Shown: positions 34,530 through 52,614 of the stretch, piece by piece | Position numbering within the stretch: the first letter of the stretch is position 1 | How the letters are laid out: each line of letters opens with the position of its first letter | Translations under genes and position numbers: made by a program | Notes under the pieces: generated by a model | Databases searched by the model: none | Told to the model about the DNA's origin: nothing | Seen by the model: the letters and a program-made list of their open reading frames with translations, nothing else | DNA from: Caulobacter sp. NIBR2454 | Lineage (GTDB): Bacteria; Pseudomonadota; Alphaproteobacteria; Caulobacterales; Caulobacteraceae | Assembly (NCBI RefSeq): GCF_027474405.1 | Contig: NZ_CP114871.1 | Coordinates: forward strand, 2,861,001-2,925,000 | Length of the DNA: 64,000 bases | Direction: 5' to 3'

Positions 34530-34562
34530 GTCCCGAAGCCTGCACCCCGCACCGCGCCGTGT

Positions 34563-34617
34563 CTCGCGGTTTTCGGACATGTCTGTACGCCGCATCATCG
34601 CGTCCGAAAACCGCGAG
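34563..34617. promoter_or_regulatory. Perfect inverted repeat shared by ada-alkA and ogt
   Basis: CTCGCGGTTTTCGGAC (34563-34578) and its exact reverse complement (34602-34617) are separated by 23 bases. The outer edges are 33 bases from the alkA start and 32 from the ogt start, so each gene sees the same site at the same distance. Likely Ada-AlkA binding sites for methylation-induced, two-way expression (inference). Confidence 0.65.
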
Positions 34618-34649
34618 CATCGCTAGGGTGACTGGTCCAAAATCGCGCG

Positions 34650-35209: not shown

Positions 35210-36430
35210 ATGAACCACTCAGGGTGGGGCTTGGTGCAGTCAGTGAAGCAGATCGAGAGCGGCGCGTCCGGGCGCTCTGGCGCATCCCGGCGAAAGCGTC
35301 AGGTGGCGTTCCTGTATATCGCCCAGCAGCACCAGATCCTCCACAGCATCACCATCGCCATCGAACTGGCGCGAGGCTGGCCGGATATCGAGGTCCACGC
35401 CCTGGCCGTGACATCCGGGCATATCGACTATCTTCGCACCACCATCGCCGCCCTGGGAGGGGCGCCGATCAAGCTGAAGCTGCTGGGGCCGGCCGCTCTG
35501 CGCAATCTGCGCCGCCGGGGCGCTTCGACCCCACCCAAGGCGGTGATGCTGGCGGCGAACCTTCGGGTGCTGGCCCGCTACGACGCCATCGTCACGCCTG
35601 AGCGCACGACCGCCATGGTGCGGCGCCTGGGCCTGATCCGTCCGGCCCTGATCTATACTCAGCACGGCGCCGGCGACCGGGGCGGGCCATTTGAGCCGCG
35701 CCTCAAGGTCTTCGACCTGGTCATGGCGGCCGGCCCCAAGCAGTACGCCCGCATGGTCGATTGCGGGCTGGTGGAGGCGGAACACTGCGCCATGGTCGGC
35801 TATCCAAAGTTCGACCTCGTCGACGGCCTGGCTATCGGTCAGCAGCGGCTGTTCGAAAACGACCGCCCCAGCGTGCTCTACAACCCGCATTTCGACCCAA
35901 CGCTCAGCTCGTGGCCGGGCTGGGGCATGCAGGTGCTGGAGCAGTTCGCCGCCCAGGATCGCTACAACCTGATCTTCGCTCCGCACCTGCGTCTGTTCGA
36001 CGGCGCGAATCTTCAAGACCGGGCGAGACTGGCGAAGTTCAAGGACCATCCCAATATCCGCATCGACTTGGGCGGGCCGGCGACCATCGACATGACCTAT
36101 ACGACCGCGGCGGACGCCTATCTGGGCGACGTCAGCAGCCAGATCTACGAATTCGTCCGCAAGCCCCGTCCGACGGCGTTCCTCAACGCCCATGGCGTCG
36201 CCTGGCGTGACGATCCCAACTATCGGCATTGGGCGTTCGGCCCGGTCGCCGAGAGGGTCGAAGACCTCATGCCGACCATCGACCGGGCGTTCGCCGAGAA
36301 GGCGCGCTACATCCCCGAACAACAGGCCGGGTTCAGCGAAACCTTCGACCTGCGACCAGAAACCTCTTCCCTTCGCGCGGCCCGGGCCGTTGCGAATTGC
36401 CTCGAGAAGGCGCAAGTGCGGCCGTCATGA
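35210..36430 (+). CDS. CDP-glycerol glycerophosphotransferase-like protein
   Basis: About 406 residues. A GT-B-like protein resembling the CDP-glycerol:glycerophosphotransferase (TagF/TagB) family: IYTQHGAGDRGGPFEPRLKVFD, a GYPKFDLVDGL segment and a C-terminal half with LIFAPHLRLFDG and YLGDVSSQIYEFVRKPRPTAFLN (the donor-site D-S-S motif). Such enzymes move glycerol phosphate or similar groups onto a lipid or sugar. It is the first gene of the lipid operon and overlaps the hydroxylase gene by 4 bases. Start uncertain: ATG 35210 or GTG 35234. Confidence 0.72.
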   Translation: MNHSGWGLVQSVKQIESGASGRSGASRRKRQVAFLYIAQQHQILHSITIAIELARGWPDIEVHALAVTSGHIDYLRTTIAALGGAPIKLKLLGPAALRNLRRRGASTPPKAVMLAANLRVLARYDAIVTPERTTAMVRRLGLIRPALIYTQHGAGDRGGPFEPRLKVFDLVMAAGPKQYARMVDCGLVEAEHCAMVGYPKFDLVDGLAIGQQRLFENDRPSVLYNPHFDPTLSSWPGWGMQVLEQFAAQDRYNLIFAPHLRLFDGANLQDRARLAKFKDHPNIRIDLGGPATIDMTYTTAADAYLGDVSSQIYEFVRKPRPTAFLNAHGVAWRDDPNYRHWAFGPVAERVEDLMPTIDRAFAEKARYIPEQQAGFSETFDLRPETSSLRAARAVANCLEKAQVRPS

Positions 36431-37185
36431 CCAAGGATACCTCCCCCGCCGCGCTTGAGCGCATCCGCGAAGCCGCCCTGCGCTATGATCTGGGCCGCAT
36501 GGATATGAAGCGCCTGACGGTGGTCTATTTCACCTACCCCGCCGTGCTCGTCTATCTGGCGCTGTCGGCGGCGACGATCTGGGGCGCGGTCGCCACCGGC
36601 GCCGGCGCGCAGCCGATCCGCACCCTGGCGGCCTTCGTGGCGGCGCAGGTGCTGTATCCGGTGGTCTGGTACTGCCTGCACCGATGGGTCCTGCACGGAC
36701 GGTGGCTGTATCGCATGAAGTGGTCCGCCACCCTGTGGAAGCGCATCCACTACGATCACCATCAGCAGCCCAATCGCATGGACGTGCTGTTCGGTTCGCT
36801 GACCAACACCCTGCCGACCATCTCGCTGGCGACCGTGCCGGTGGGCTATCTGATCGGCGGATGGAGCGCGGCGTTCACGGCCCTGGCCACGGGCCTGCTG
36901 ATGACTTGCTTCTACGAGTTCTGCCACTGCATCCAGCACCTGAACTACATCCCGAAGAACAAGTGGCTGGCGCGGATCAAGGTGCTGCACATGGCGCACC
37001 ACTTCCACAACGAGAACGGCAACTACGGGATCATCACCTTCTGGCCGGACAAGCTGCTGGGCACTGAGTACGGCCCCAAGGAGCGTCCGCGCAGTCCGAC
37101 GGTGTTCAACCTCGGCTATGACGGCGAGGAAGCCGAGCGCTATCCGTGGGTCGCCGAGCTGTCCGGCGACACGCCGCGGCGCTAG
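36427..37185 (+). CDS. Fatty-acid/sphingolipid hydroxylase, sterol desaturase superfamily
   Basis: 252 residues, integral membrane. Three His clusters typical of di-iron lipid hydroxylases: LHRWVLH, IHYDHHQQ and LHMAHHFHNENGNYG, with four hydrophobic stretches. The NYGIITFWPDKLLGT end is the family pattern. Located directly before flippase, acyl-ACP synthetase, CerR, ACP and Spt, it probably hydroxylates the long-chain base or acyl chain of ceramide (inference). ATGA overlap with the preceding gene; 2 bases to the flippase. Confidence 0.85.
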   Translation: MTKDTSPAALERIREAALRYDLGRMDMKRLTVVYFTYPAVLVYLALSAATIWGAVATGAGAQPIRTLAAFVAAQVLYPVVWYCLHRWVLHGRWLYRMKWSATLWKRIHYDHHQQPNRMDVLFGSLTNTLPTISLATVPVGYLIGGWSAAFTALATGLLMTCFYEFCHCIQHLNYIPKNKWLARIKVLHMAHHFHNENGNYGIITFWPDKLLGTEYGPKERPRSPTVFNLGYDGEEAERYPWVAELSGDTPRR

Positions 37186-37187
37186 GG

Positions 37188-38537
37188 GTGCAAATCCAGA
37201 CGACAGGCCTGCTGCGTCGCGTCCTGGCCAATGCGGGGGTTCTCCTCGGCGGCCGGGTCGTGAACGCGGTGATCAGCCTCGCCTACATGGCGGTGGCTGC
37301 GCGCGCCCTCGGCGCGACGGGCCTCGGCGTTCTGGTCCTGATCAACGCCTTCGCGCAGCTGGTTGGCGACGGCGTCAAGTTTCAGTCCTGGCAGACCGTG
37401 CTTAACTACGGCGCCGCGCCCTTCGCCGAGGACCGCAAACCTGACTTCCAGCGGGTGGTGCGCTTCACCCTGTTTCTCGACCTTGTCAGCGGACTGGTGG
37501 GTGTCCTCGTTGGCATCATCGGCGCGATCCTGTTCGACGAGGAACTGGGCTGGTCGGTCGCCCTCGCGCCGGCCGCCGCCGTCTACGCCCTGTCGATCTT
37601 CGCCATGACCCCCGCGACGCCCGTGGGTCTGCTGCGACTGTTCAACCGTTTCGACCTGATGTCGGCCCAGGCGGCGATCAGCTCGACGGTGCGTCTGGCC
37701 GGCGGCCTCGCGGCCTGGTGGCTGAAGGCCCCGGTCGAGATGTTCCTGTTGGTCTGGGCGGCCGGCACTATCGCGGCCTTCCTGTATCTGTGCGGCGTAT
37801 CGGCCCTGGAGATGAAGCGCCGCGATCTGCTGAGCGGCTGGTCATGGCGAGGCCCGCTGACCGCCGGCATGCCCAACGCCTGGCGCTTCGCCTGGGCGAC
37901 GAATTTCAGCGCCACGGTGGATGTGATGTTCACCCACGTGGTCACGCTGGTGATCGGCGCCGTCATGGGACCCGCCCCCGCCGCCCTGTGGCGGGTGGGC
38001 CGGCAGGTGGCCGACGCCCTGGCCAAGCCCGCCAAGCTGCTGATCCCCGCCCTTTATCCCGAACTGGCCCGCCTGCGCGCCGCCAAGGGCGAGGCGGCCA
38101 TGACCAAGCTGGCGGTGCAGGTCGGACTGCTGGGCGGCGGGGTCGCCACTCTTCTGCTGGTGGTCACCATCTTCGCCGGCGGGCCGATTCTCACCCTCGT
38201 CATGGGACCGGCCTTCGCCGATGCGCAGGAGGTCATGGTCTGGCAGGTCGCCGCCGCGGTAGTCGCCATCTGGGCTCTGCCGCTGGAGCCGATGCTGGTG
38301 TCCCTGGGCCAGGCGGGCGCCGCCTTGCGCGTGCGGCTGGCGGTCTGTGTGCTCTATCTGGGCGTTCTGGTGCCCGTCGTCCGCACCTGGGGCCCAAACG
38401 GCGCCGGCGCGGCGCTCGTCGGAGCCGGCATACTCATGGGCCTGGGCATGCTATGGGCCCTGCGCCGCGGCTATCGGCTCAATCCCGAACTCAATTCACT
38501 TGATAGCGCTGTCAAAAGCGAGCGAAACCCCGACTGA
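37188..38537 (+). CDS. Wzx/MATE-type lipid-linked flippase
   Basis: 449 residues, about 12-14 membrane spans, of the polysaccharide-transporter/MOP superfamily. N-terminal NAGVLLGGRVVNAVISLAYM and ARALGATGLGVLVLINAFAQL are typical. GTG at 37188 chosen: it follows the previous stop by 2 bases. Its TGA shares a base with the ATG of the acyl-ACP synthetase. Usual substrates are lipid-linked sugars; in this operon a modified ceramide is a fair alternative (inference). Confidence 0.82.
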   Translation: MQIQTTGLLRRVLANAGVLLGGRVVNAVISLAYMAVAARALGATGLGVLVLINAFAQLVGDGVKFQSWQTVLNYGAAPFAEDRKPDFQRVVRFTLFLDLVSGLVGVLVGIIGAILFDEELGWSVALAPAAAVYALSIFAMTPATPVGLLRLFNRFDLMSAQAAISSTVRLAGGLAAWWLKAPVEMFLLVWAAGTIAAFLYLCGVSALEMKRRDLLSGWSWRGPLTAGMPNAWRFAWATNFSATVDVMFTHVVTLVIGAVMGPAPAALWRVGRQVADALAKPAKLLIPALYPELARLRAAKGEAAMTKLAVQVGLLGGGVATLLLVVTIFAGGPILTLVMGPAFADAQEVMVWQVAAAVVAIWALPLEPMLVSLGQAGAALRVRLAVCVLYLGVLVPVVRTWGPNGAGAALVGAGILMGLGMLWALRRGYRLNPELNSLDSAVKSERNPD

Positions 38538-40243
38538 TGATCACCCCCACCGCCCCCGACCGCGCCATCCGCCTCGCCGACTTCGCAACCCTGACCGAGG
38601 CGCTCGACTACGCCGCGACCGGCGTGACCGGCATGAACCTGTATTCGCTGCGCGGCGAACTGGTCGAAGCCCTGCCTTATTCGACCCTGCGGACCGACGC
38701 CCTGGCGCTGGGCAAGCGCCTGCTGGCCAGCGGCCTGCAAACGGGTGATCGCGTCGGCCTGATCGCCGAAACGGACGGTGACTTCGTCCGTGGCTTCTTC
38801 GCTTGCCAGTACGCGGGACTGATCCCCGCGCCCCTGCCCCTGCCCGCCGCTCTCGGCGGCCGCGCGCCCTACATCGCCCAGATCGCCCGCCTGCTGCAGT
38901 CGGCCGACGCCGCCGCCGTGTTCGGCCCCGAGGCGATGCTGGAATGGATCAAGGAAGCGGCCGAACAAGCCGGGGTGAAAGCCGCCGGCCTGATCCGCGA
39001 CCTGCCGGAAGGCGACGCCGATCTGCCTGCCATCGTCGCCGACGGCCCCTGCTATCTGCAATTTTCGTCGGGCAGCACGCGTTTCCCCACGGGCGTGCTG
39101 GTCACCCATCAGGCCATGATGGCCAACGCCGTAGCCATCACCCGCGACGGCCTGAAGGTGAAGCCGGACGACCGCGCGGTCTCGTGGCTGCCGCTCTATC
39201 ACGACATGGGCATGGTCGGGTTCCTGCTCAGCCCGATGTCCAGCCAGATGTCGGTCGACCTGCTGCCCACCGGCGCCTTCGTTCGCCGGCCGTTGCTGTG
39301 GCTGGACCTGATCAGCAAGAACGGCGGCACGATCTCCTACAGCCCCAGCTTTGGCTTCGAGCTCTGCGCCCGCCGGGGCGAAAGCGCCGCCATCGACCAT
39401 ATCGACCTGTCCAAGTGGCGCGTGGCCGGGATCGGCGGCGACATGATCCGCATGAAGCCGCTGCAGGCCTTCGCCGACACCTTCGGCAAGATCGGCTTCG
39501 ACAAGAAGGCCTACTTCGCCAGCTACGGCATGGCCGAGGCCACCCTGGCGCTCAGCATGGCCCCGCTGGATGGCGGCCTCGTCGCCGAGGTGCTGGACCT
39601 GCACAAGCTGGAACACGACGGTGTCGCCGTGCCCGGGACCGACACAGCGCCGTCGCGCGCCTTCGCCCGCTGCGGTCCCGCCCTGCCAGGCCATGAGCTG
39701 GAAGTGCGCGACATCGACGGCTCGATTCTGCCCGAGCGCCGAGTCGGCCGCATCTTCGCGCGCGGCCCCAGCCTGATGCGCGGCTACTTCCGCCAGCCCG
39801 AAATCACGTCCGAAGTCCTGTCCGAGGACGGCTGGCTGGACACCGGCGACCTTGGCTATTTCGTCGACGGCGAGATCGTCATCACCGGCCGGGCCAAGGA
39901 CCTGATCATCCTCAACGGCCGCAACATCTGGCCGCAAGACCTGGAATGGACCGCCGAGGCTGAGATCACGACCCTGCGCAGCGGTGACGTGGCGGCCTTC
40001 TCCGTGGCCGGCGACGGCGAGGAGGCCATCGTCGTCCTGGCCCAGTGCCGCAGCTCCGACCCGGAGGTGCGCGGCGCCCTGGTCGAGGAGATCGCCAACG
40101 TCCTGCGCGTTCGCCACAGCATCGAGGCGCGCGTCCAGCTGGTCGGCTCCCACGCCCTGCCCCAGACCTCGTCGGGCAAGCTGAGCCGGTCCAAGGCCAA
40201 GGCCGCCTATATCGCCGGAGCCTTCGCGCCCGAGGCCGCCTGA
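38537..40243 (+). CDS. Fatty acyl-AMP ligase/acyl-ACP synthetase for ceramide synthesis
   Basis: 568 residues of the ANL adenylate-forming family: P-loop YLQFSSGSTRFPTG (about 173-186), SYGMAEATLA, GWLDTGDLGYFVDGEIVITGR and the A10 Lys region SSGKLSRSK. It is a FAAL-like type, with no CoA motif that I recognise. In C. crescentus the gene at this place loads fatty acids on the sphingolipid ACP; that role is inferred by synteny. Overlaps flippase by 1 base and CerR begins after 1 base. Confidence 0.9.
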   Translation: MITPTAPDRAIRLADFATLTEALDYAATGVTGMNLYSLRGELVEALPYSTLRTDALALGKRLLASGLQTGDRVGLIAETDGDFVRGFFACQYAGLIPAPLPLPAALGGRAPYIAQIARLLQSADAAAVFGPEAMLEWIKEAAEQAGVKAAGLIRDLPEGDADLPAIVADGPCYLQFSSGSTRFPTGVLVTHQAMMANAVAITRDGLKVKPDDRAVSWLPLYHDMGMVGFLLSPMSSQMSVDLLPTGAFVRRPLLWLDLISKNGGTISYSPSFGFELCARRGESAAIDHIDLSKWRVAGIGGDMIRMKPLQAFADTFGKIGFDKKAYFASYGMAEATLALSMAPLDGGLVAEVLDLHKLEHDGVAVPGTDTAPSRAFARCGPALPGHELEVRDIDGSILPERRVGRIFARGPSLMRGYFRQPEITSEVLSEDGWLDTGDLGYFVDGEIVITGRAKDLIILNGRNIWPQDLEWTAEAEITTLRSGDVAAFSVAGDGEEAIVVLAQCRSSDPEVRGALVEEIANVLRVRHSIEARVQLVGSHALPQTSSGKLSRSKAKAAYIAGAFAPEAA

Positions 40244-40244
40244 C

Positions 40245-41186
40245 ATGGCCCTGGCGGCGGTCACCGGCGCGACGGGCTTCCTGGGCCGCCATCTGGTCCG
40301 CGCCCTGGCCGAGGCAGGGTTCGACGTCCGCGTCCTGATGCGCCGTGATCCGGTCCATCCCCTGTGGCGCGAGATCGAGCCGCAGGTGGTGCTGGGCTCG
40401 CTATCGGACCCGTCGGCGCTGGAGCGCCTCTGCGACGGCGCCGACGTGGTCATCCACTGCGCCGGGCTGATCAAGGCCCGCAATCGCGCCGAATTCGACG
40501 CCGTGAACCGGGATGGCGCCGTGGCGGTCGCCCACGCCGCCCTGAAAACGGCGCCTACGGCCCGCTTCCTGCTGATCTCCAGCCTCGTCGCCCGCGAGCC
40601 GCAGCTTTCCCACTACGCCGCCTCCAAACGAGCGGGCGAAGAAGCGGCGGCCAAGCTGCTTGGCGACCGGCTGACCATCGTGCGGCCGCCCGCGATCTAT
40701 GGTCCGGGCGATGTGGAGACCTTCGCCCTGTTCAAGGCGGCCGCGACGGCGCCGCTCTTACCGGTGTTTGATTCGGCCGCTCGGATCGCCCTCGTCCATG
40801 TCGAGGACGCCGCGGACCAGATCGTCGCCCTGGCCAAAGACAGGAATCCTGGCGCTTTAGCCACCCTGTGCGACGCAAATCTCGCCGGTTACAGCTGGGT
40901 CGATCTGATGAGCGCCGCATCGGAGGCGGTCGGTCGAAAGCCGCGTTTGGTCAAGCTTCCCGACGGCGTTGTAAAGCTTGTCGGCATGCTCGGAAGCCTT
41001 GCGGCGAAAGGAAGCGGCGTCGCAATGCTGACCTCCGAGAAGGCCCGCGAAATCCTTCATCGCGACTGGTCGGTGTCGCTTAAAGAACACAATCCGAGAC
41101 TTCCTTCGCCCCGATACGGGCTTAAAGAGGGTTTTGCGCAAACCGTGGCGTGGTACCGCAATAATGGGTGGTTGGCGCCCCTTTAA
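40245..41186 (+). CDS. cerR: Ceramide reductase CerR (NAD-dependent epimerase/dehydratase family)
   Basis: 313-residue extended SDR. Nucleotide motif TGATGFLGRHL (about 6-16), catalytic Tyr124 and Lys128 in HYAASKRAG, and VRPPAIYGPGD. In Caulobacter this protein reduces the keto group of the sphingoid product, probably on oxidised ceramide after acylation. Its place between acyl-ACP synthetase and ACP-Spt matches. A TACAAT -10-like sequence follows at 41216, before ACP. Confidence 0.88.
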   Translation: MALAAVTGATGFLGRHLVRALAEAGFDVRVLMRRDPVHPLWREIEPQVVLGSLSDPSALERLCDGADVVIHCAGLIKARNRAEFDAVNRDGAVAVAHAALKTAPTARFLLISSLVAREPQLSHYAASKRAGEEAAAKLLGDRLTIVRPPAIYGPGDVETFALFKAAATAPLLPVFDSAARIALVHVEDAADQIVALAKDRNPGALATLCDANLAGYSWVDLMSAASEAVGRKPRLVKLPDGVVKLVGMLGSLAAKGSGVAMLTSEKAREILHRDWSVSLKEHNPRLPSPRYGLKEGFAQTVAWYRNNGWLAPL

Positions 41187-41215
41187 ATTTGCCGTTCAAC
41201 CGCCCACGTTTTTGT

Positions 41216-41221
41216 TACAAT
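41216..41221 (+). promoter_or_regulatory. -10-like box before ACP-spt
   Basis: TACAAT preceded by TTTTTGT, in the 93-base stretch between cerR and the likely ACP start. No convincing -35 box. If real it gives ACP-spt their own promoter and rules out the ATG at 41220 as the ACP start. Confidence 0.35.
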
Positions 41222-41279
41222 GGTGTCACGGCAGCGGGGGCTGTTGCACACCTTCACCACATCCGGGCTGGCGTCACCG

Positions 41280-41531
41280 TTGGAAACAGTAACTGATCTT
41301 ACCGTTCGCGAAATCGGCCGCGCGGCCGAAAGCGTTCTCGGCCGCAGCGTCGAGGTGTCCGAAGACACCGACATCATGCGCGATCTCGAAGTCGACTCCC
41401 TCGCCCTGATGAACATCGTCATGGAGCTTGAGGACGCCTTCGACCTCTCGATTCCCCTGGACCGGCTCGCCGACGTCCAGACCGCAGGCCAACTGGCCAG
41501 CCTCATCAAAGATCTCAAGAAAAGAAGCTAG
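41280..41531 (+). CDS. Dedicated acyl carrier protein for sphingolipid synthesis
   Basis: 83 residues from a TTG, the normal ACP size. The 4'-phosphopantetheine site is Ser40 in LEVDSLALMNIVMELED; DRLADVQTAGQLASLI is the helix-4 end. An ATG at 41220 would add 20 non-ACP residues and overlaps a promoter-like box. Located 3 bases before spt; in Caulobacter such an ACP supplies acyl chains to Spt or the ceramide synthase. Confidence 0.88.
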   Translation: METVTDLTVREIGRAAESVLGRSVEVSEDTDIMRDLEVDSLALMNIVMELEDAFDLSIPLDRLADVQTAGQLASLIKDLKKRS

Positions 41532-41534
41532 GAC

Positions 41535-42755
41535 ATGGGCCTTTTCGACAAGCACCTGGCCTATGCTCAGGCTTACGAGGCTATCCGCAACGCCGGGGCC
41601 GATCCGTTCAACGTGAAGTTCGAACAGGTCCTTTCGCCGACCGAAGGGATCATTGACGGTCGCCGCACGATTCTGCTGGGGTCCCATAACTATCTGGGCC
41701 TGACCTTCGACCCCACGGTTCTTGAAGCCGCCGCCAAGGCCCTGACCGAAAGCGGCGCCGGCACGACCGGCTCGCGTATCGCCAACGGCAATTTCGATGG
41801 CCATCGCCGTCTGGAAAGCGAGCTGGCGCGGTTCTACGGCCGCAAGCACGCCATGGTGTTCACGACCGGCTATCAAGCCAACCTGGGCATGCTTTCCAGC
41901 TTGGTCGGCCGCGGCGATCATCTGATCTTGGACGCCGACAGCCACGCCTCGATCTATGACGCTTCGCGTCTGGGCATGGCCGAGGTCATCCGCTTCCGCC
42001 ACAACGACCCTGAAGACCTCTACAAGCGCCTCAAGCGCCTGCAGGGCGTTCCCGGCGATCGCCTGATCGTGGTCGAGGGCATCTACTCGATGCTAGGCGA
42101 CATCGCTCCGCTGAAGGAGATGGTCGCGGTGAAGCGCGAGATGGGCGCCTATCTGCTCGTCGACGAAGCGCACTCCATGGGCGTCCTGGGTGAAAAAGGC
42201 CGCGGCCTCGCCGAGGTCGTGGGCGTTGAGGAAGACGTCGATTTCGTCGTCGGCACCTTCTCCAAGAGCCTGGCCGGCATCGGCGGCTTCTGCGTCTCGA
42301 ACCTGGATGGGTTCGAGGTCATGCGCGTTACCTGCCGCCCGTACATGTTCACCGCCTCCCTGCCGCCGGCGACCGTCGCCTCGACCACGGCCGCGCTGCA
42401 CCGCATGGAGACCGACCCGGGCCTGCGTCAGCGGGTCATGGCCAACGCCAAGCGCCTCTATGACGGCCTGAACGCCATGGGCTTCGTCACTGGCCCCACC
42501 TGCAACCCGATCGTCGCCATCGCCCTGCCAGACCAGCCGGTGGCCATCGGCGTTTGGAACGCCCTGATGAAGGCCGGCGTCTATATGAACCTGGCCCTGC
42601 CGCCGGCCACGCCGGACATGCGTCCCCTGCTGCGCGCCAGCGTCAGCGCCGCTCACAGTGACGAACAGATCGACGCTGTCCTCGCCATGTTCAAGCAGGT
42701 CGGCGAGGCCTTCGGCCTGATCGAAGGCGATGTGAAGCGCGTGGCTACGGCCTAG
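41535..42755 (+). CDS. spt: Serine palmitoyltransferase
   Basis: 406-residue PLP enzyme of the alpha-oxoamine synthase family; joins serine and a fatty acyl thioester to 3-ketosphinganine. Seen: GSHNYLGLTFDP, GTTGSRIANGNFDGHRRLE, LDADSHASIYDASRLG, LVDEAHSMGVLG, and PLP Lys244 in GTFSKSLAG. The HNYLGL / PPATPDMRPLLRASVSAAH pattern and the ACP neighbour separate it from KBL and BioF. First committed step of the locus. A terminator at 42780 follows. Confidence 0.93.
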   Translation: MGLFDKHLAYAQAYEAIRNAGADPFNVKFEQVLSPTEGIIDGRRTILLGSHNYLGLTFDPTVLEAAAKALTESGAGTTGSRIANGNFDGHRRLESELARFYGRKHAMVFTTGYQANLGMLSSLVGRGDHLILDADSHASIYDASRLGMAEVIRFRHNDPEDLYKRLKRLQGVPGDRLIVVEGIYSMLGDIAPLKEMVAVKREMGAYLLVDEAHSMGVLGEKGRGLAEVVGVEEDVDFVVGTFSKSLAGIGGFCVSNLDGFEVMRVTCRPYMFTASLPPATVASTTAALHRMETDPGLRQRVMANAKRLYDGLNAMGFVTGPTCNPIVAIALPDQPVAIGVWNALMKAGVYMNLALPPATPDMRPLLRASVSAAHSDEQIDAVLAMFKQVGEAFGLIEGDVKRVATA

Positions 42756-42779
42756 ACGCTACGATTTTCGGACTTTGCG

Positions 42780-42815
42780 AACGCGCCCATCCCTCAGGAT
42801 CGGGCGCGTTTTGCT
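42780..42815. terminator. Shared terminator between spt and the cpg operon
   Basis: A perfect 9-base stem (42780-42788 with 42802-42810) and a 13-base loop, then TTGCTTT. The last codons and stop (42794) of the minus-strand cpg gene lie inside it, so coding end and terminator overlap. Confidence 0.72.
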
Positions 42816-44625: not shown

Positions 44626-45665
44626 CAGGCGGCCAGCCAAGAGGTGATCGAACCCTTGGGCTCGCGCGCCGCCTGCACGATCTGGGCGGCATGAACGCCA
44701 AAGCAGATCACCGTCCATACGGCCACGGCGACAAGGCCCAGGTCAGGTCGGCCCAACAGGACCGCCGCGGTCAGCAGGATAAGGTTCGGGTTACGGCGGG
44801 CGGTGATCAGGCGGAAGAAGCTGTCGAACGGCCGCCAAGCATGCATCTCCAGCTTGAAGCGGGCCAGGAAGATTCCTTCCTCGATCCGCTGAGCCACATA
44901 GCCGCCGGCGACGATGGCCAGGAACAGGCCTTCCCAGGGCAAGGGATGCGGCCCCGCCTGCACCCCGACCAGCCACGCCCACCACCAGAAGGGCGGATGG
45001 ACCAGATCAATGCCGTGATCGAAGACGTTGCCCAGCTTGGACGAGGTCAGGGTCACCCGCGCCAACTTGCCGTCCACCGTATCGAGGAACGTCATGATCC
45101 AGGCGCAGACCAGGCCCAGGGCGAAGTGGCCGGTCCAGAACAGGCCGAACGCCGCCAGCACCAGGATGAAACCGGCCATGGTCACCTGGTTCGGCGTTAT
45201 TCCGGCAAGGGCGCACCAGCGGGTGACGACACGCGCGGGCGCGGGCCAGACATACTTGGTGACCAGGTCGGTGACGCCCTTGTAGGAGCCCTGGAACAGG
45301 CGCTTCTCCACCGCCCGGACGCGGTCAGGGGTCAAGCGCTCCAGCACCGGCGCCTCGCGCTTGCGAAGGGCGCTGTTGTAGGCCGAGCCCAGCTCCAGCG
45401 CGGTCAGGCGCTTCAGCGGCAAGGCGGAGGGATCCGACGCCGCAGCGGGGGCATCGGCGGCGGTGACGCAAACGGCGGTCACCTCGCCCGCCTCGTCCAC
45501 CAGCGCGACGCCCGGCTGGACGGACAGGGCGCGGAGCAGCGCTTCATCGAACACCCAGCCGGCATTGGCCAGGATCACCACCCGCTCGCGGTCGGCGGGG
45601 ATGGCGGCCACGGGCTCGACGCCCACGCGGCGGAAGATGCGGTGCAGCCGCTCGGTCGAGGTCAT
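44625..45665 (-). CDS. cpgA: CDP-alcohol phosphatidyltransferase, ceramide-phosphoglycerate synthesis
   Basis: 346 residues. The C-terminal membrane domain carries the full metal-binding motif with Asp195, Asp198, Asp216 and Asp220 (DTVDGKLAR...GNVFDHGID). An N-terminal 130-residue domain contains RVVILANAGWVFDEALL and resembles the partial nucleotidyltransferase of two-domain CDP-alcohol transferases. It likely moves a phospho-alcohol from a CDP donor onto the ceramide branch. ATG at 45665; a TTG at 45752 is possible. First gene of the minus operon. Symbol from synteny. Confidence 0.78.
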   Translation of the reverse strand: MTSTERLHRIFRRVGVEPVAAIPADRERVVILANAGWVFDEALLRALSVQPGVALVDEAGEVTAVCVTAADAPAAASDPSALPLKRLTALELGSAYNSALRKREAPVLERLTPDRVRAVEKRLFQGSYKGVTDLVTKYVWPAPARVVTRWCALAGITPNQVTMAGFILVLAAFGLFWTGHFALGLVCAWIMTFLDTVDGKLARVTLTSSKLGNVFDHGIDLVHPPFWWWAWLVGVQAGPHPLPWEGLFLAIVAGGYVAQRIEEGIFLARFKLEMHAWRPFDSFFRLITARRNPNLILLTAAVLLGRPDLGLVAVAVWTVICFGVHAAQIVQAAREPKGSITSWLAA

Positions 45666-45760
45666 TCCCCAAATCCGAACACCCGCCTCGCCCACGACCA
45701 GCCCGACGGGCTGGCGGCCTTCTTCGGCGCCCGATACGGTCGTCACCAGCAATCCACCCC

Positions 45761-46699
45761 TTGCAACTCAGGCGACTTGATACGCAGGTTCGCTCCGACT
45801 TGCCAGAAAGCGACCCCGCACCTTTGTACCGTCTTGCGCATTTTTCGGACCCTCACCTGCCGTCGCCCCCCGGGTCGATGACCCCGGCCTATGCCTTAAC
45901 CAAGCGACTGCTCAGCTGGTCCTCCTGGCGACGCAAGCGGAGCAAGCAGCACAAGCGCGAGGTGCTGGACGCGATCACCGCCGACGTGGCCGCCTATCAT
46001 CCCGACCATCTGGTGATCACCGGCGACCTGATCAACTTCTCGGCGGACAAGGAATTCGCCGCCGCGCGAACCTGGCTGGAGAGCTTGGGTGATGCGCGTG
46101 ACGTCACCGTGACGCCGGGCAATCACGACGCTCTGGCCGGACGTGGCGCGTTCGATCCCTGGGCCGAATGGCTTGAGGACAAGACGACCGACTGCTTTCC
46201 GAAGGTGCGCATCCGCGACGAGGTGGCCATCGTCTGCGTGAACACCGGCGTGCCGACCGCCCCGCTCCTGGCGACTGGGACCTGCGGGCAGGCGCAGCTT
46301 GAGCGGCTCGGCCCAATGCTCGACGAGCTCGGCGCCAGGGGACTGTTCCGCATTATCGCCATTCACCACCCGCCGACACCCGGCGGCTCGCCGCGTAAGG
46401 CCCTGACCGATCAGGCCGCCCTGCGCGCCGTTCTGGAAAAGCACGGCGCGGAACTGATCCTGCACGGCCACACCCACGTGCCGCTTCTGGGCGCGGTTCG
46501 CGGCCCCAAGGGTTCTATCCCGGCGGTGTGCGCGCCGTCGGCTTCGCAGAAGCCCGCGGGCAAGAACCCCGCCGCACGCTGGCACGGCGTGGAGGTCGAG
46601 CGTGCCGGCGACGGCTGGACGGTTCGCGTGGTGGTGCGGGGGTTCGCGCCCGAGGGCGGTCCGATACGGGCCCTGGGCCAGTACCGGCTGGACGTCTGA
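45761..46699 (+). CDS. Metallophosphoesterase
   Basis: About 312 residues. Calcineurin-like motifs: HFSDPHLP (D-x-H), VITGDLINFS (GD-x2), TPGNHDALAG (GNHD) and ILHGHTHVP (GHxH). A basic stretch WSSWRRKRSKQHKRE follows the first motif. Cytosolic, with no signal. Start unsure among TTGs from 45761 to about 45800. Substrate could be a phospholipid or nucleotide; its place between cpg and lpt-like genes hints at lipid phosphates but is not proof. Confidence 0.8.
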   Translation: MQLRRLDTQVRSDLPESDPAPLYRLAHFSDPHLPSPPGSMTPAYALTKRLLSWSSWRRKRSKQHKREVLDAITADVAAYHPDHLVITGDLINFSADKEFAAARTWLESLGDARDVTVTPGNHDALAGRGAFDPWAEWLEDKTTDCFPKVRIRDEVAIVCVNTGVPTAPLLATGTCGQAQLERLGPMLDELGARGLFRIIAIHHPPTPGGSPRKALTDQAALRAVLEKHGAELILHGHTHVPLLGAVRGPKGSIPAVCAPSASQKPAGKNPAARWHGVEVERAGDGWTVRVVVRGFAPEGGPIRALGQYRLDV

Positions 46700-47164
46700 C
46701 TATTTCAGATAGCGCAGGGTCGAGCGGATGGCCGTGTCGCCCCGGACGACAAACCGAACGGCCTCGAAGGAGGGAAGACCCACCTTGGTCGGGGCGTCGT
46801 TGGAGAATCCGAATCCTTCGGTCGGCATGCCGATGACGCTGCGGTTGAAATCCCGGTCGCCGTTCCAGTCGTGATAGATCGCCACGGCGTACGCGCCCGG
46901 CTGTACGTTGAAGCACACCGTGGTCACCGGCGCGGTCGTCGCGGCGCGGATACGGTACAGCTTTCCTTTCGGCGCCAGGAAGCGTTTGCGATCGTCGGGA
47001 TAGACCGTGACCGCGATCTCGCCCTTGGCGGCGCGCACGCCCGCGACGTGAACCGTCAGTCTTGCCGACCCCGTGCCTTCGCAGGCCTGGGCGAATGCGG
47101 ACGAACCTGTCGTCACGGCGGCGGCCGCTACGGCCACGCCCAACAGCAAGGTTCGCGCTTTCAT
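46700..47164 (-). CDS. Periplasmic DUF2141 protein
   Basis: 154 residues. A Sec signal (KARTLLLGVAVAAAAVTTGSSAFA) precedes a beta-rich DUF2141 domain with VHVAGVRAAKGEIAVTVY, PGAYAVAIYHDWNGDRDFN and MPTEGFGFSNDA, all family hallmarks. Function of the family is unknown. It lies within the sphingolipid region, 1 base from the metallophosphoesterase stop. Periplasmic location would suit a lipid-handling role; this is speculation. Confidence 0.82.
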   Translation of the reverse strand: MKARTLLLGVAVAAAAVTTGSSAFAQACEGTGSARLTVHVAGVRAAKGEIAVTVYPDDRKRFLAPKGKLYRIRAATTAPVTTVCFNVQPGAYAVAIYHDWNGDRDFNRSVIGMPTEGFGFSNDAPTKVGLPSFEAVRFVVRGDTAIRSTLRYLK

Positions 47165-47225
47165 GAAAATCGGCGACTCCCTATGATGCCGAAGCGGCGG
47201 CGAAGGCCGCCCAGAAGGCAGGTCC

Positions 47226-47666
47226 GTGAGCAATCCCACAGCGTTGAATTTCGGCTTTCCTCACACAAAGGTCGCCGAGACGGACCTTTGGCTTGTGCTT
47301 GTGCGGCCAAAGCAACCCACATTTGGGTCTTTGGTTCTCATATGCAAGGAGCCGGCGCGATCGCTCGCTGAACTCAGCGCGGACGCGTACGCTGATCTGC
47401 AATTGGCTGTCCAGCAGATCGAGGCGACGCTGCGGGCCGTGGTGGATCACCAGAAGATCAACTATCTGGCCTTGATGATGGTCGATCCCGACGTGCATTT
47501 CCACGTCATCCCGCGATATGAGGGCGAGCGCGAGCACGACGGTCGCGTGTACCGGGACGCCGGTTGGCCGGCCATGCCCAACCTGTCGGAAGTGGTGGAA
47601 CTGGACATGGACGCCGCATCGCGACTCGCCGACCACCTTCGCCGCGAATGGCGGGGCGCCCAGTGA
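47226..47666 (+). CDS. HIT-family protein
   Basis: 146 residues. The histidine triad appears as HFHVIPRY (H-x-H with the third His replaced by Pro-context, as in many bacterial HIT/galactose-1-P uridylyltransferase-like members). N-terminal LDFG-type start LNFGFPHTKV and KEPARSLAEL. GTG start. It overlaps the LptF-like gene by 4 bases. Likely a nucleotide hydrolase/transferase; whether it serves the lipid pathway is unknown. Confidence 0.78.
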   Translation: MSNPTALNFGFPHTKVAETDLWLVLVRPKQPTFGSLVLICKEPARSLAELSADAYADLQLAVQQIEATLRAVVDHQKINYLALMMVDPDVHFHVIPRYEGEREHDGRVYRDAGWPAMPNLSEVVELDMDAASRLADHLRREWRGAQ

Positions 47667-48877
47667 CCAAGCTTCCCCTCAGCGGCTTTGGTCTGACCCT
47701 TCTGGATCGCTACCTGCTGCGGCTGGTGGCCTGGCCCCTGCTGGCTTGCCTGGGCGTCACCGTCGTCACCCTGCTGCTTGAGCGGACCCTGCGCCTGCTG
47801 GACCTGCTGTCGCAAAGCAACGACCGCTTCGGCTTCGTCGTGGCGCTCAGCGGCAACCTGGTGCCGCACTATCTGGGTCTGGCCCTGCCCATCGCCTTCT
47901 TCGTGGCCCTGTTCGTGGTTGTGACACGGCTGAACACCGACTCCGAGATCGACAGCCTGCTGGCCAGCGGCGTGTCCCTGACCCGCCTCGCCGCGCCCTT
48001 CGTCCTGCTGGGCTTTGGCCTGACGATCTTCAGCCTGGTCGTATTCGGCTATGTGCAGCCCTATAGCCGGTACGCCTACCGCGCCGTGATGCACTCGGCG
48101 ATCAACGCCGGCTGGAACGGGCGATTGCCCGCCGGCGCCTTCATCGACCAGGACGGCGTCCTGCTGACCGCCGATATCGCCGATCCCGCCGGCCAGAAGC
48201 TGGAGCGCGTGTTCATCCGCCGCCGCGACGACACCGGTCGCGAGGAGATCGTCACCGCCCGAATGGGCCGCATCCAGCCGGAGTTCGGCGGCAAGGAAGT
48301 GGTGGTGACCCTCACCGACGGTCGCCGCATCGGCCAGGACGCGCGCGGCGCCTACCAGATCCTCAGCTTCAACGACTGGACGCTCAAGGCGCCGTTGGCG
48401 GGCGCCGCGCGCTTGTTGCGCGCCCGCGGCGGCGACGAGCGTGAGCTCACCTTGGACGAACTTTGGCGGCAAGCCGCCTCCGGCAAATCCATCCTGCCGG
48501 AGCAGACGCTGTTGGCGGAACTCTACAGCCGACTGGCGCGGGCCTTCTTCCTGCCGTTCCTGCCGTTGATGGCCTTCCCGCTGGGACTGGCGGCCAAGCG
48601 GGCCCGAAGAGCCCCGGGCCTGATCGTAGCAGGCCTCGTCCTGTTCGCCTTCCAGCACAGCCTGCAGACCGGCGCGGGCTTGGCCGAGAGCGGTCGCGCT
48701 AGCGCCTTGGTCGGAACCGGCACGCCCTTCATCATCTTCTGCGCCTTTTGCGTGTGGATGTTCTTGGGCAGCCGCGACCGCCCGGGCGAGACGCCGATCA
48801 GCAAGATTTCCGAGCACATCGCCGCCGCCATCTCCACTTGCGAGAAGGCGGTCCAGATCAAGAAGAAGCCGGCATGA
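47663..48877 (+). CDS. LptF-type (YjgP/YjgQ) permease
   Basis: 404 residues. Spans at about 18-40, 60-80, 100-120 and three near the C-terminus flank a periplasmic beta-jellyroll domain (about 130-290). DRYLLRLVAWPLLACLGVTVVTLLL is the typical first span, SGNLVPHYLGLALPIAFFVAL the second. LptF with LptG and LptB moves lipopolysaccharide from the inner membrane. It overlaps HIT (GTGA) and LptG-like (ATGA), so one operon with the ceramide synthase. Canonical LptF or a sphingolipid paralogue: not decidable from this window. Confidence 0.85.
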   Translation: MTKLPLSGFGLTLLDRYLLRLVAWPLLACLGVTVVTLLLERTLRLLDLLSQSNDRFGFVVALSGNLVPHYLGLALPIAFFVALFVVVTRLNTDSEIDSLLASGVSLTRLAAPFVLLGFGLTIFSLVVFGYVQPYSRYAYRAVMHSAINAGWNGRLPAGAFIDQDGVLLTADIADPAGQKLERVFIRRRDDTGREEIVTARMGRIQPEFGGKEVVVTLTDGRRIGQDARGAYQILSFNDWTLKAPLAGAARLLRARGGDERELTLDELWRQAASGKSILPEQTLLAELYSRLARAFFLPFLPLMAFPLGLAAKRARRAPGLIVAGLVLFAFQHSLQTGAGLAESGRASALVGTGTPFIIFCAFCVWMFLGSRDRPGETPISKISEHIAAAISTCEKAVQIKKKPA

Positions 48878-49935
48878 AGCTCGCCCTCTACGTCACCAAG
48901 CTGACCGCCGTGCGCGTCCTGGCGGCCCTGGTGGTGCTGCTATCGGTGCTGCAGCTTCTGGACCTGCTGGACGTCACCAACGACATCCTCGACCGCGGCC
49001 TGGGGGCGGGCGGGCTGATCTGGTACGCGACCCTGCGCCTGCCGCGCATGATCGACCAGGCGATGCCGCTGGCGGTGCTAGCGGGCTGTCTGTTCGCCTT
49101 TGCTCAGTTGGGCCGCGAGAGCGCGGCCGTGGCCATGCGGGCGGCGGGCATCTCGGTCTATCGCATCGCCGGCATGGCCCTGCCGGTCGCCATGGGCGCG
49201 TTCATCATCCAGTTGGCCGCCACCGAAGTGATCGGTCCGCGCACCGACGCCATGCTGCGCACCTGGTGGCGCGACACGGCTCCCGCCGCTGATCGCAAGG
49301 GTCCCGAAACCCGCTCCTTCCGGGTCGGCCCTGATCTGGTGACCGCCACGATTGGAGACGATCTGGGGCGACGCCTGGAGAAGGTCATCATCTATCGCCG
49401 CGACCAGGGCGGCGCCGTAACCGAGCGCTTGCAGGCGCCCGAGGCTGTCTATGGTCCCACCGGCTGGACCCTGATCTCTCCGTCTTTCGAGCGCTTTACC
49501 GACGACTCCGCCCAGCCAGGGTCGGCCACGCGGATGGCCTGGGCCAATCCGCTGGAACCTGGCGACGTGCAGGTCTTGTTCGCCACCGATAACAACGGCT
49601 CGGCCTCCTCGGCCCGCCGCGCCTTGATGGGGGGCGGGTCAGAGCGGCCGGAAAGCTACTACGCCGTTCGCTGGAACCGCGCCTTCGCGGCGCCGGCCGG
49701 CGCCTTCGTCATGCTGATCCTCGCCGCGCCCCTGGTGGCGGCCAATTTCCGCAGCGGCCAGGGGGCGACGATCATGACCGCCAGCCTGATGTCGGGCCTG
49801 GCCTTCATGGTTCTGGACGGGCTGATCACCGCACTTGGTGAAAGCGGCGTGGTCTGGCCCTGGCTTGGGGCCTGGACGGCGCCCATGATGTTCGCGGCGC
49901 TCGGAACGTCCGTATTACTGACCCTGGAGGGATGA
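48874..49935 (+). CDS. LptG-type (YjgP/YjgQ) permease
   Basis: 353 residues, same topology as its neighbour: first span VRVLAALVVLLSVLQLLDLL, PRMIDQAMPLAVLAGCLFAF coupling helix region, GPRTDAM and a C-terminal set ending VLLTLEG. ATGA overlaps both upstream and downstream genes; the next encodes ceramide synthase. This tight four-gene coupling is the main evidence that it handles sphingolipids rather than, or as well as, lipopolysaccharide. Confidence 0.83.
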   Translation: MKLALYVTKLTAVRVLAALVVLLSVLQLLDLLDVTNDILDRGLGAGGLIWYATLRLPRMIDQAMPLAVLAGCLFAFAQLGRESAAVAMRAAGISVYRIAGMALPVAMGAFIIQLAATEVIGPRTDAMLRTWWRDTAPAADRKGPETRSFRVGPDLVTATIGDDLGRRLEKVIIYRRDQGGAVTERLQAPEAVYGPTGWTLISPSFERFTDDSAQPGSATRMAWANPLEPGDVQVLFATDNNGSASSARRALMGGGSERPESYYAVRWNRAFAAPAGAFVMLILAAPLVAANFRSGQGATIMTASLMSGLAFMVLDGLITALGESGVVWPWLGAWTAPMMFAALGTSVLLTLEG

Positions 49936-51092
49936 TGGCGTTCGACGGCCAACCGGGGGCGGGCGTCACCGTCACGCCTGTGCGCACTCGCGCCGAACTT
50001 GATCGCTTCATCCGCGTGCCCATGCGGCTGAACGCTGGCGACCCAAACTGGATCTCGCCCCTCATCAGCGAGCGCCAGCAGGCGTTGTCCGCCAAGGCCA
50101 ATCCGTTCTTCGAGCATGCTCAGGTCCAGATGTGGCTGGCCGTCCGCGACGGTCGCGACGTGGGCCGGATCAGCGCCCAGATCGACGCCCTGGCGCCGGT
50201 CGATCCCACCCGCTCAATCGGGCACTTCGGGATGATCGCGGCCGAGGACGATCCGGCGGTGTTCGCCGCCCTCTTCGCCGCCGCCGAGGCGTGGTTGAAG
50301 GAGCGCGGCTGCGACGTGGCGCAAGGTCCCTTCAACCTGTCGGTCAATGAAGAGGTCGGCCTGCTGGTCGACGGCTTCGACACGCCGCCCATGGTGCTGA
50401 TGGGCCACGACGCGCCATACACGGGCCAGCGCGTCGAGGAGCAGGGCTACGCCAAGGCCAAGGACATGTTCGCCTACATCTCCAACCTGGTGAACGACCT
50501 GCCAGATGGTGTCCTGCGCCGTGTGAAGCGCGGCCCGCCAGAAGGCGTGATCCTGCGTAAACTGGACATGAAGCGGTTCGAGGCGGAGGTTCACACCCTC
50601 ACCGACATCGCCAACGACGCCTGGTCGGACAACTGGGGCTACACCCCGTCCACACCGGCCGAGACCCGCCACTTGGCCAAGAGCCTCAAGGCGGTCATCG
50701 ACCCGGATCTGGTCTGGTTCGCCGACATAGACGGCGAGGACGCTGGCTTCATCGTCGCCCTGCCCAACGTCAACGAGGCCATCGCCGACCTCGACGGCAA
50801 GCTGCTGCCTTTCGGCTGGGCCAAGCTGCTGTGGCGATTGAAGGTCGCGCGGGTCAAATCCCTGCGCGTTCCGCTGATGGGCGTGCGCCGCAAGTTCTCC
50901 CGCACCCTGCGCGGCCAGGTCCTGCCCTTCCACCTGACCAACGCCGCGGCCGATCAGGCGCGGGCCAAGGGCTATCACAGCATCGAGCTGTCCTGGATTC
51001 TTGAAGACAACCTGCCCATGAAGAACATCTGCGAGCGGGTCGGCGGGCGCGCCTACAAGACCTATCGCATCTACGAGAAGGCCCTGAAGTGA
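49932..51092 (+). CDS. bcerS: Bacterial ceramide synthase
   Basis: 386 residues; a GNAT-like acyltransferase with no membrane spans. RFIRVPMRLNAGDPNWISPLISERQQAL, NPFFEHAQVQMWLAVRDGRDVGRIS and QGPFNLSVNEEVGLLVDGFD are hallmarks of the family that includes Caulobacter bCerS, which N-acylates 3-ketosphinganine. It is unrelated to eukaryotic ceramide synthases. ATG at 49932 overlaps the LptG-like stop, and the next gene starts within its stop (GTGA). Confidence 0.85.
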   Translation: MMAFDGQPGAGVTVTPVRTRAELDRFIRVPMRLNAGDPNWISPLISERQQALSAKANPFFEHAQVQMWLAVRDGRDVGRISAQIDALAPVDPTRSIGHFGMIAAEDDPAVFAALFAAAEAWLKERGCDVAQGPFNLSVNEEVGLLVDGFDTPPMVLMGHDAPYTGQRVEEQGYAKAKDMFAYISNLVNDLPDGVLRRVKRGPPEGVILRKLDMKRFEAEVHTLTDIANDAWSDNWGYTPSTPAETRHLAKSLKAVIDPDLVWFADIDGEDAGFIVALPNVNEAIADLDGKLLPFGWAKLLWRLKVARVKSLRVPLMGVRRKFSRTLRGQVLPFHLTNAAADQARAKGYHSIELSWILEDNLPMKNICERVGGRAYKTYRIYEKALK

Positions 51093-51856
51093 GCGGCGGC
51101 TTCACCGCCCTCGTCCTGGCAGGCGATCGGGGCGAGCCGGACGCCGTCTCGGCCTATGCCGGCGTCGCCCACAAGGGTTTGATCGTCCTGGAGGGTGAGA
51201 CCCTGCTGGCGCGGGTCCTGGCGGCCCTAGCGGCGGCCGGCGCCACCCGCATCGGTGTCTGCGCTGACAATGCCGAGTTGCTGGCCGCCCTGCCCGCCGC
51301 CACGCCCGCTGGCGTCGCCGTGGAGGTGATCGCTCCCGAGGCTGGTCCCAGCCTCAGCGTCTATCGCGCGGCCCAGGCCTTGGGCACTCCGCTGCTGGTG
51401 ACCACTGTCGATCACGCCCTGTTGCAGGCCGACTGGGTGAAACAGTTCCTGGCCGACGCCCCAACCGGTTGCGACATCGCCGCCCTGCTGGCGCCTGAGG
51501 CCGCCGTTCGGCGCGACGCACCCCAGACCCAGCGCACCTGGCTGACCTTCCGCGATGGCCGCTACAGCGGTTGCAACCTGTTCCTTCTGAGGACGCCCGA
51601 CGCGCTCAAGGCCATCGAGTTGTGGCGGACGGTCGAGGCCCACCGCAAACGGCCCTGGCGCATCGCCATGATCCTGGGTCTCGGCACCCTGCTGCGGTTC
51701 GCGCTCGGCCGCCTGACCCTAGACCAGGCCATAACCGACATTGGTCGGCGCGCAGGTGTGAAGGCCGCGGCGGTGCGGTCGAACTACGGATTGGCGGCTG
51801 TGGACGTGGACAAGCCGGCGGACCTGGATCTGGTCCGCCAGATCGTCGAGGCTTAA
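51089..51856 (+). CDS. MobA-like nucleotidyltransferase, unknown substrate
   Basis: 255 residues with a GT-A-type nucleotidyltransferase fold: start ALVLAGDRGEPDAVS, a VTTVDHALLQADWV metal-site region, and CNLFLLRTPDALKAIELWR. The usual GGxSxRM loop is replaced by GDRGEPD, so the activity could differ from MobA or be lost. Co-transcribed with ceramide synthase through a 4-base overlap; its stop overlaps that of the convergent cytidylyltransferase by 4 bases. Possibly head-group supply. Confidence 0.72.
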   Translation: MSGGFTALVLAGDRGEPDAVSAYAGVAHKGLIVLEGETLLARVLAALAAAGATRIGVCADNAELLAALPAATPAGVAVEVIAPEAGPSLSVYRAAQALGTPLLVTTVDHALLQADWVKQFLADAPTGCDIAALLAPEAAVRRDAPQTQRTWLTFRDGRYSGCNLFLLRTPDALKAIELWRTVEAHRKRPWRIAMILGLGTLLRFALGRLTLDQAITDIGRRAGVKAAAVRSNYGLAAVDVDKPADLDLVRQIVEA

Positions 51857-52614
51857 GCCGCGACGCTTTCCTTGGACATCCAGCGCTCGGTCAGCTCACG
51901 ATTGGGCTGCAGGTCGTGCGGGAAGTCCATCTCGGCCCACTCCAGGCCCTCGATGCTCTGGACGGCGACGCCGCCCTGCTCGCGGGCGATCTGGTCGATC
52001 ACCGACAGGTACCAGCGCTTCAGGCCTTCGGACGGATCACGCAGGATCTGATCGATCACGGCGGTGAAGCGGCGCGCGCCCTCGGCCGAGAACCGCAGGA
52101 AGCCGATGGATTCGGCATCGTACTCGGTGATGGTCTTACCGATGGCGATCAGCTCGTCGCCACGGGTCAGCACCTTCATGTCGTCGCTGTCGTAACGCGC
52201 CTTGCGGTCCACGGTGACGGTGATGTCGGCGGCGGGAGCGTCCAGCAGCCTGCGGCCGATCTCCGGCTCCCACAGGGTGTCACCATTCAGGATCAGCGCC
52301 CCGCCCGCCAGTTCATCGCGAACCAGCCAGCAGGTGGCCAGATTGTCCGACACCATGAAGAACGGGTTGTAGGCGCAGCGGATCGTCATGCCCGGCAGGT
52401 GGATGCGGGCGACCTCGGCCTCGACGGCGTGGGAATTGAACCCGGTCACGACCACGACCTCGGTGATCCCGATGGCGTGCAGGTGGGCCAGTTGCCAGGA
52501 CAGCACCGTGCGCCCCGACAGATCGATCAGGCACTTGGGCAGGTTGTCGGTCAGAGGCGACAAACGCTTCCCCTGTCCTGCGCTCAGGACGATAGCCTTA
52601 TGCACACGCGCCAT
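51853..52614 (-). CDS. cpgD: CpgD-like phosphoglycerate cytidylyltransferase
   Basis: 253 residues of the phosphocholine-cytidylyltransferase/NTP-transferase family: SAGQGKRLSPLTDNLPK (nucleotide loop), LILNGDTLW (metal Asp), and KRWYLSVIDQIA. In C. crescentus a protein at this end of the locus, CpgD, makes CDP-glycerate from phosphoglycerate for ceramide diphosphoglycerate. Assignment is by family and position. The ATG at 52614 is chosen over 52695, which gives 27 atypical residues. Confidence 0.72.
   Translation of the reverse strand: MARVHKAIVLSAGQGKRLSPLTDNLPKCLIDLSGRTVLSWQLAHLHAIGITEVVVVTGFNSHAVEAEVARIHLPGMTIRCAYNPFFMVSDNLATCWLVRDELAGGALILNGDTLWEPEIGRRLLDAPAADITVTVDRKARYDSDDMKVLTRGDELIAIGKTITEYDAESIGFLRFSAEGARRFTAVIDQILRDPSEGLKRWYLSVIDQIAREQGGVAVQSIEGLEWAEMDFPHDLQPNRELTERWMSKESVAA

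Follow-up and report, generated by a model that had tools for sequence, protein, structure and literature searches.

A Caulobacter-type sphingolipid gene cluster with a putative ceramide hydroxylase gene in Caulobacter sp. NIBR2454

Which lipid is made by the genes at 35210..52614 of the analyzed stretch of Caulobacter sp. NIBR2454, and what do the genes that set this locus apart from its published relatives add to it? The stretch, called the window here, comprises 64,000 nucleotides (NZ_CP114871.1, positions 2,861,001 to 2,925,000) of a genome that totals 3,832,021 bases on 3 contigs. Open-frame and gene-order analysis gave 18 open genes, lettered a to r (Table 1), arranged as six strand blocks. 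With good confidence, we explain the locus as a Caulobacter-type cluster for the synthesis and transport of the ceramide phosphoglycerates CPG and CPG2 that has gained one gene and lost another, in which CpgC would be a Tam41-type enzyme and the product of gene b a ceramide hydroxylase. The computed basis of this explanation is gene content, gene order, co-occurrence, predicted folds and conserved histidines.

An earlier note on the window had proposed a near-complete anionic sphingolipid pathway, and this reading was borne out by the key enzyme and by synteny with Caulobacter clusters. In the PDB search, Spt (gene g) matched serine palmitoyltransferase 2x8u with 465 bits, compared with 218 bits for the best KBL/BioF-type chain, so that a KBL/BioF enzyme was ruled out. 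Scanning named genomes with Spt yielded 306 relatives, of which the best 80 loci were kept; 52 of these were full-length (at least 19.7 kb). Gene presence was counted after leaving out matches below 35% of length or 45 bits. Since lptF2, h, cerS, cerK and j recur in 48, 47, 46, 46 and 42 of the 52 full-length loci, the arrangement goes beyond chance. The comparison of gene order suggested by the same note found it conserved in relatives: a, c, d, e, f and g, then h, i and j on the opposite strand, followed by k, m, n, o, p, q and r. Among the best 80 of the 306 relatives, the closest by Spt was L009 (94%), whose title reads Caulobacter segnis strain FS; the other Caulobacter-titled loci reach 72–75%. 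The Caulobacter-group comprises 24 full-length loci, including L019, L030 and L036, whose titles read Caulobacterales or Caulobacteraceae, and the Phenylobacterium-like group 20 loci, including L041, L042, L053, L063, L065 and L074 despite their different titles.

In C. crescentus, ceramide synthesis takes five genes of CC_1168–CC_1152 and CPG2 synthesis six, and a part in transport is proposed for CC_1168, CC_1166, CC_1156 and CC_1155 (PMC11324152). The C. vibrioides-labelled locus L027 served to assign the CC numbers, through its gene order and not through the CC sequences. All five ceramide genes (aasR, cerR, acpR, spt, cerS) are in the locus, the headgroup genes CC_1161, CC_1160, CC_1159, CC_1158, CC_1153 and CC_1152 were matched as h, i, j, k, q and r with their order conserved, and the transport genes for the flippase (by synteny), LptF2 and LptG2 are present. 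Thus, 14 of the 18 genes have a counterpart with an ascribed role in that paper, and the core of the cluster is therefore already known. The counterparts of a and m are the two genes termed probably unrelated there, and the only additions to the 17 C. crescentus genes are b and l, which have no counterpart there. Compared with CC_1168–CC_1152 (CCNA_01226–01210), which has been termed a sphingolipid biosynthesis and export cluster (PMC12633290), the window shares a, c–k and m–r by gene order, whereas it adds b and l (the latter common in Caulobacter-group loci) and lacks lptC2. The earlier note had described the extra genes as not explained and as marking a larger synthesis-plus-export system. 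The first point has mostly been overtaken, counterparts of the flippase, LptF2/LptG2 and phosphoesterase genes being discussed in PMC11324152; a system for synthesis plus transport had already been proposed in that paper. The locus is thus probably the known Caulobacter-type cluster for an acidic outer-membrane sphingolipid, which it probably also exports.

By analogy with the published counterparts, AasR would charge AcpR with a fatty acid, Spt would join the AcpR-bound fatty acid and serine, and bCerS and CerR would finish dihydroceramide. This would be phosphorylated by CpgB and receive phosphoglycerates through CpgC, CpgD and CpgA, and outward movement of the lipid is thought to depend on the flippase and LptF2/LptG2.

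The gained gene, b, matches FA_hydroxylase (PF04116, a family that includes both Scs7-like and Sur2-like kinds) with 70.1 bits at a cut-off of 31. In an alignment of 43 rows (42 different, none dropped), ten histidines, which we take to be metal-binding, are invariant in all 43, and b aligned with yeast Scs7 over all four histidine motifs. Scs7 provided the only PDB relatives found, by a weak match (E 3e-5), and no Sur2 structure turned up in this search. Scs7 and FA2H hydroxylate C2 of the N-acyl chain of ceramide. Gene b has in common with them the FA_hydroxylase domain and all ten aligned histidines, but differs in the weakness of the match, in having no cytochrome b5 domain among its Pfam matches and in lying usually beside the bCerS gene.

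Co-occurrence was studied in 385 Alphaproteobacteria genomes, with b called at E ≤ 1e-40 and Spt at E ≤ 1e-85. Gene b was found in 37 and Spt in 49, with both in 36 (Fisher's p 1.6e-38, uncorrected for kinship; the 37 genomes with b span 22 family codes). In the exception, G381, b shares a cluster with an Spt-like enzyme and with a, c, q, o, n, l, k, i and h. This divergent enzyme (L204:14137-15345, 33% identity) has serine palmitoyltransferase 3a2b as best PDB match, and the cluster carries two copies of a. Of 37 stretches from the 36 genomes other than G381 (G388 twice), 33 have cerS as the next gene after b in the same orientation, while cerS was undetected in 3 and lies elsewhere in 1; by family codes, b directly precedes cerS in 20 of the 22. 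Five named loci have b, before cerS in all except L009 (named locus L081 and class locus L199 being the same genome). L009 is also the only one of the 24 Caulobacter-group loci with b, which none of the 20 Phenylobacterium-like loci has; apart from the window, L009 alone showed b, judged by gene order, between a and c. When other PF04116 proteins were surveyed in 19 named genomes (39 matches, 9 without a locus being left out of the comparison), 29 of 30 loci scored at most 35 bits against b, and the remaining one is b of L009's genome.

We read gene b as a dedicated ceramide hydroxylase in Alphaproteobacteria, usually encoded directly before bCerS. The enzyme would be metal-dependent and would act on ceramide as Scs7/FA2H do, with C2 of the N-acyl chain as the carbon favoured by the match to Scs7 and the adjacent cerS. 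FA2H-like 2-hydroxylases are known in myxobacteria (PMC10002949, citing Ring 2009 for the tie to sphingolipids); by description, these are bacterial and have conserved histidine motifs, like b, although from other bacteria. No paper naming an alphaproteobacterial FA2H-like hydroxylase beside bCerS was found in a search that left subscription journals largely outside, and the available main texts of PMC9386255 and PMC11334938 contain no hydroxylase or desaturase term, only one "hydroxylated" each, in a reference. If the reading is right, b would be a common dedicated ceramide hydroxylase of Alphaproteobacteria, present in 36 of the 49 Spt-bearing genomes. The hydroxyl of bacterial sphingolipids matters for the outer membrane; C. 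crescentus reportedly becomes resistant to colistin when it is lost (PMC11324152).

The second proposal concerns CpgC (gene h). No Pfam match was obtained, but its predicted fold is Tam41-like, at 11% identity to Tam41, the mitochondrial/bacterial CDP-diacylglycerol synthase. On this structural model, CpgC is proposed as a Tam41-type CTP:ceramide-1-phosphate cytidylyltransferase, which would differ from Tam41 in its substrate and convert ceramide 1-phosphate to CDP-ceramide. The fold thus offers a concrete, assayable reaction for the unexplained CpgC step.

Several points weigh against these assignments. Neither sequence nor profile search found a PDB relative of gene h, and if h makes CDP-ceramide, we know of no enzyme for the next step. 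For b, genome-wide absence was examined in just 19 named genomes, and 13 of the 49 Spt-bearing genomes lack it, so it is not obligatory or universal. The resemblance to Scs7 may also be compatible with a Sur2-like activity on C4, and the genome has a FA_desaturase-family protein, so that b may duplicate its function or attack a different carbon. A doubtful but still appreciable alternative is that b is a Sur2-like sphinganine C4-hydroxylase leading to phytoceramide, with the desaturase-family enzyme making the N-acyl hydroxyl and two hydroxyls in the lipid. The presence of both genes in the genome fits it, as do the C. vibrioides-labelled locus L027, which is without b, and the report that the DesA-family protein CC_0202 hydroxylates the amide-linked acyl chain in C. 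crescentus (PMC11324152). The Scs7 structures, as the only PDB relatives found, and the adjacency of b to cerS, an N-acyltransferase gene, argue for N-acyl C2 instead. Gene b belongs to a different protein family from CC_0202 and lies inside the cluster, and the desaturase-family protein of the host does not track Spt: at E ≤ 1e-30 it occurs in 62 of the 385 genomes, 13 of them with Spt, and three genomes from the window's family that carry it have no Spt match (genomes shared with the desaturase, with gene a and with CpgD were counted by hand). It was rejected on these counts as a class-wide sphingolipid hydroxylase. Its gene, at G000:C1:3132100-3133038 just downstream of a UbiA-family gene, is a candidate counterpart of CC_0202.

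That the locus is merely the published cluster and its differences carry no functional meaning seems improbable to us: the 14 genes with ascribed counterparts are what such a view expects, but b is placed inside the operon, overlapping a by 4 bases and 2 bases from c, and its relatives elsewhere are linked to cerS. It is hardly credible that b is no sphingolipid enzyme but a chance insertion of a general hydroxylase of the fatty-acid or sterol type. PF04116 is a broad family with further members in these genomes, but b goes with Spt in 36 of 37 genomes and adjoins cerS in 33 of 37 stretches, against which the desaturase-family protein, taken as a yardstick, has only a weak link to Spt; together with the low scores of the other PF04116 proteins, the first two results led us to reject a stray hydroxylase. 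As to the origin of b, a quick tree of AasR, CerR, Spt and CerS was made from the 53 of 117 loci having all four genes, plus the window. The window and L009 are nested inside Caulobacteraceae without b in their loci, with forks at 85 and 89% in the SH-aLRT (Shimodaira–Hasegawa-like approximate likelihood ratio test). Gain of b explains this placement most simply, but b may instead have been lost several times, the tree being quick and the forks at those values. No recent or near donor was seen in the b tree, where a long branch leads to the window pair.

The lost gene is lptC2 (CC_1168), since no LptC-like match was found in the window; the earlier note had not remarked on this loss. The host genome has a single LptC, adjoining LptA- and ABC-type genes; likewise, one match was found in the genome of L009, compared with two in 19 of the 20 other Caulobacter-titled genomes and three in the remaining one. 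In the Caulobacter and Phenylobacterium loci examined (L070, L027, L010, L038), LptC2 is encoded upstream of a. With LptC2 missing, LptF2G2 probably uses the housekeeping LptC jointly, and its retention makes the locus a natural experiment on part-sharing between two Lpt systems. At the usual place of lptC2 (33069-35171), Pfam found Ada/AlkA-type and Ogt-type DNA repair genes, as in L009.

The presence of gene a goes with that of lptC2: among the 52 full-length loci, 25 have both and 21 neither, 4 have only a and 2 only an LptC-like gene, which in one of these (L042) is nearer to housekeeping LptC. Its product scored 14.7 bits with Glyphos_transf (PF04464), below the cut-off of 22.1, and its model (25 sequences; pLDDT, predicted local distance difference test, 87) has a GT-B fold. 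VIA-align Z scores were 24.4 for TagF, 23.7 for UDP-N-acetylglucosamine 2-epimerase and 23.2 for TarL, and the epimerases lead in Foldseek; the likeness to the teichoic acid glycerol/ribitol phosphotransferases TagF/TarL is thus tied by the epimerases. The PDB sequence search yielded nothing useful. Alignment with a TarL stretch over the D..SS region was not significant (E 0.62). At E ≤ 1e-50, gene a is present in 11 of the 385 genomes, of which 9 have Spt; CpgD is found in 8 of these 9 compared with 24 of all 49 Spt-bearing genomes. In two Phenylobacterium genomes (L037/G009, L039/G011), h, i, j, q and r are retained in the locus, but a has no match anywhere; an essential role of a for CPG2 was rejected on this ground, and the pair counts against a role in headgroup lengthening. 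PMC11324152 gives a cofitness of 0.57 between CC_1167 and spt mutants but calls the gene probably unrelated, a label that looks too strong. Tentatively, and with more doubt than belief, gene a might encode a TagF-like transferase that uses the CDP-glycerate of CpgD to lengthen the headgroup before the flippase, with the hydroxylated, extended lipid passing through LptF2G2 and the housekeeping LptC.

Gene l (DUF2141) is present in 32 of the 43 named loci having k and n and in 8 of the 37 b-centred loci, and absent from L027; no mention of it was found in the available texts on the cluster. In the locus of Caulobacter vibrioides OR37 (L023:4928-7003), lptC2 adjoins the flippase gene, and a, cpgA (j) and cpgD (r) are missing; by its gene content, this locus may make CPG only.

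Table 1. Genes of the cluster, with positions in the window
Gene	Position	Strand	Assignment	Basis or remark
a	35210..36430	+	GT-B-fold protein, possibly near TagF/TarL	CC_1167 counterpart by gene order; start uncertain
b	36427..37185	+	FA2H/Scs7-like lipid hydroxylase (putative)	PF04116; lineage-specific extra gene
c	37188..38537	+	Flippase-like membrane protein	CC_1166 counterpart; synteny, Polysacc_synt under cut-off
d	38537..40243	+	Acyl-ACP (acyl carrier protein) synthetase AasR	Pfam, synteny
e	40245..41186	+	CerR reductase	Pfam, synteny
f	41280..41531	+	Dedicated acyl carrier protein AcpR	Alternative start 41220 possible
g	41535..42755	+	Serine palmitoyltransferase Spt	Pfam, PDB matches
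h	42794..43711	-	CpgC; proposed CTP:ceramide-1-phosphate cytidylyltransferase	CC_1161 counterpart; Tam41-like predicted fold
i	43708..44625	-	Ceramide kinase CpgB	CC_1160 counterpart; Pfam, synteny
j	44625..45665	-	CpgA, CDP-alcohol phosphotransferase	CC_1159 counterpart; Pfam, synteny
k	45878..46699	+	Calcineurin-like phosphoesterase	CC_1158 counterpart; start possibly further upstream
l	46700..47164	-	DUF2141 protein	Pfam
m	47226..47666	+	HIT protein	CC_1157 counterpart by gene order
n	47663..48877	+	LptF2 permease	Pfam
o	48874..49935	+	LptG2 permease	Pfam
p	49932..51092	+	Bacterial ceramide synthase bCerS	CC_1154 counterpart; synteny, Acetyltransf_1 under cut-off
q	51089..51856	+	Nucleotidyltransferase	CC_1153 counterpart; Pfam, synteny
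r	51853..52614	-	CpgD, phosphoglycerate cytidylyltransferase	CC_1152 counterpart; Pfam, synteny

The genes named in the earlier note were all located in open frames at the places it gave. Pfam matches above cut-off were FA_hydroxylase, AMP-binding, Epimerase, PP-binding, Aminotran_1_2, Metallophos, HIT, NTP_transf_3, DAGK_cat, CDP-OH_P_transf, DUF2141, NTP_transferase and two LptF_LptG (221 bits for n and 205 for o). Below cut-off were Polysacc_synt for c (17.7 bits, cut-off 28.2) and Acetyltransf_1 for bCerS (19.3 bits, cut-off 20.7), for which the PDB sequence search yielded nothing useful. Most homologues of gene a begin about 25 residues further in.

The strand blocks are a–g (+), h–j (-), k (+), l (-), m–q (+) and r (-), so the locus is not one operon. 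Inside them, the note's spacing of 1–4 bases holds almost throughout, with overlaps of 4 bases at a/b, h/i, m/n, n/o, o/p and p/q and of 1 base at c/d and i/j, and gaps of 2 bases at b/c, 1 at d/e and 3 at f/g. It fails at e/f (93 bases with the chosen start of f, 33 with the upstream ATG) and at the block boundaries g/h (38, convergent), j/k (212, divergent) and l/m (61, divergent). The convergent pairs k/l and q/r abut and overlap by 4 bases, respectively. Just past the end of the cluster lies a tRNA-Arg (acg) gene at 53683-53759.

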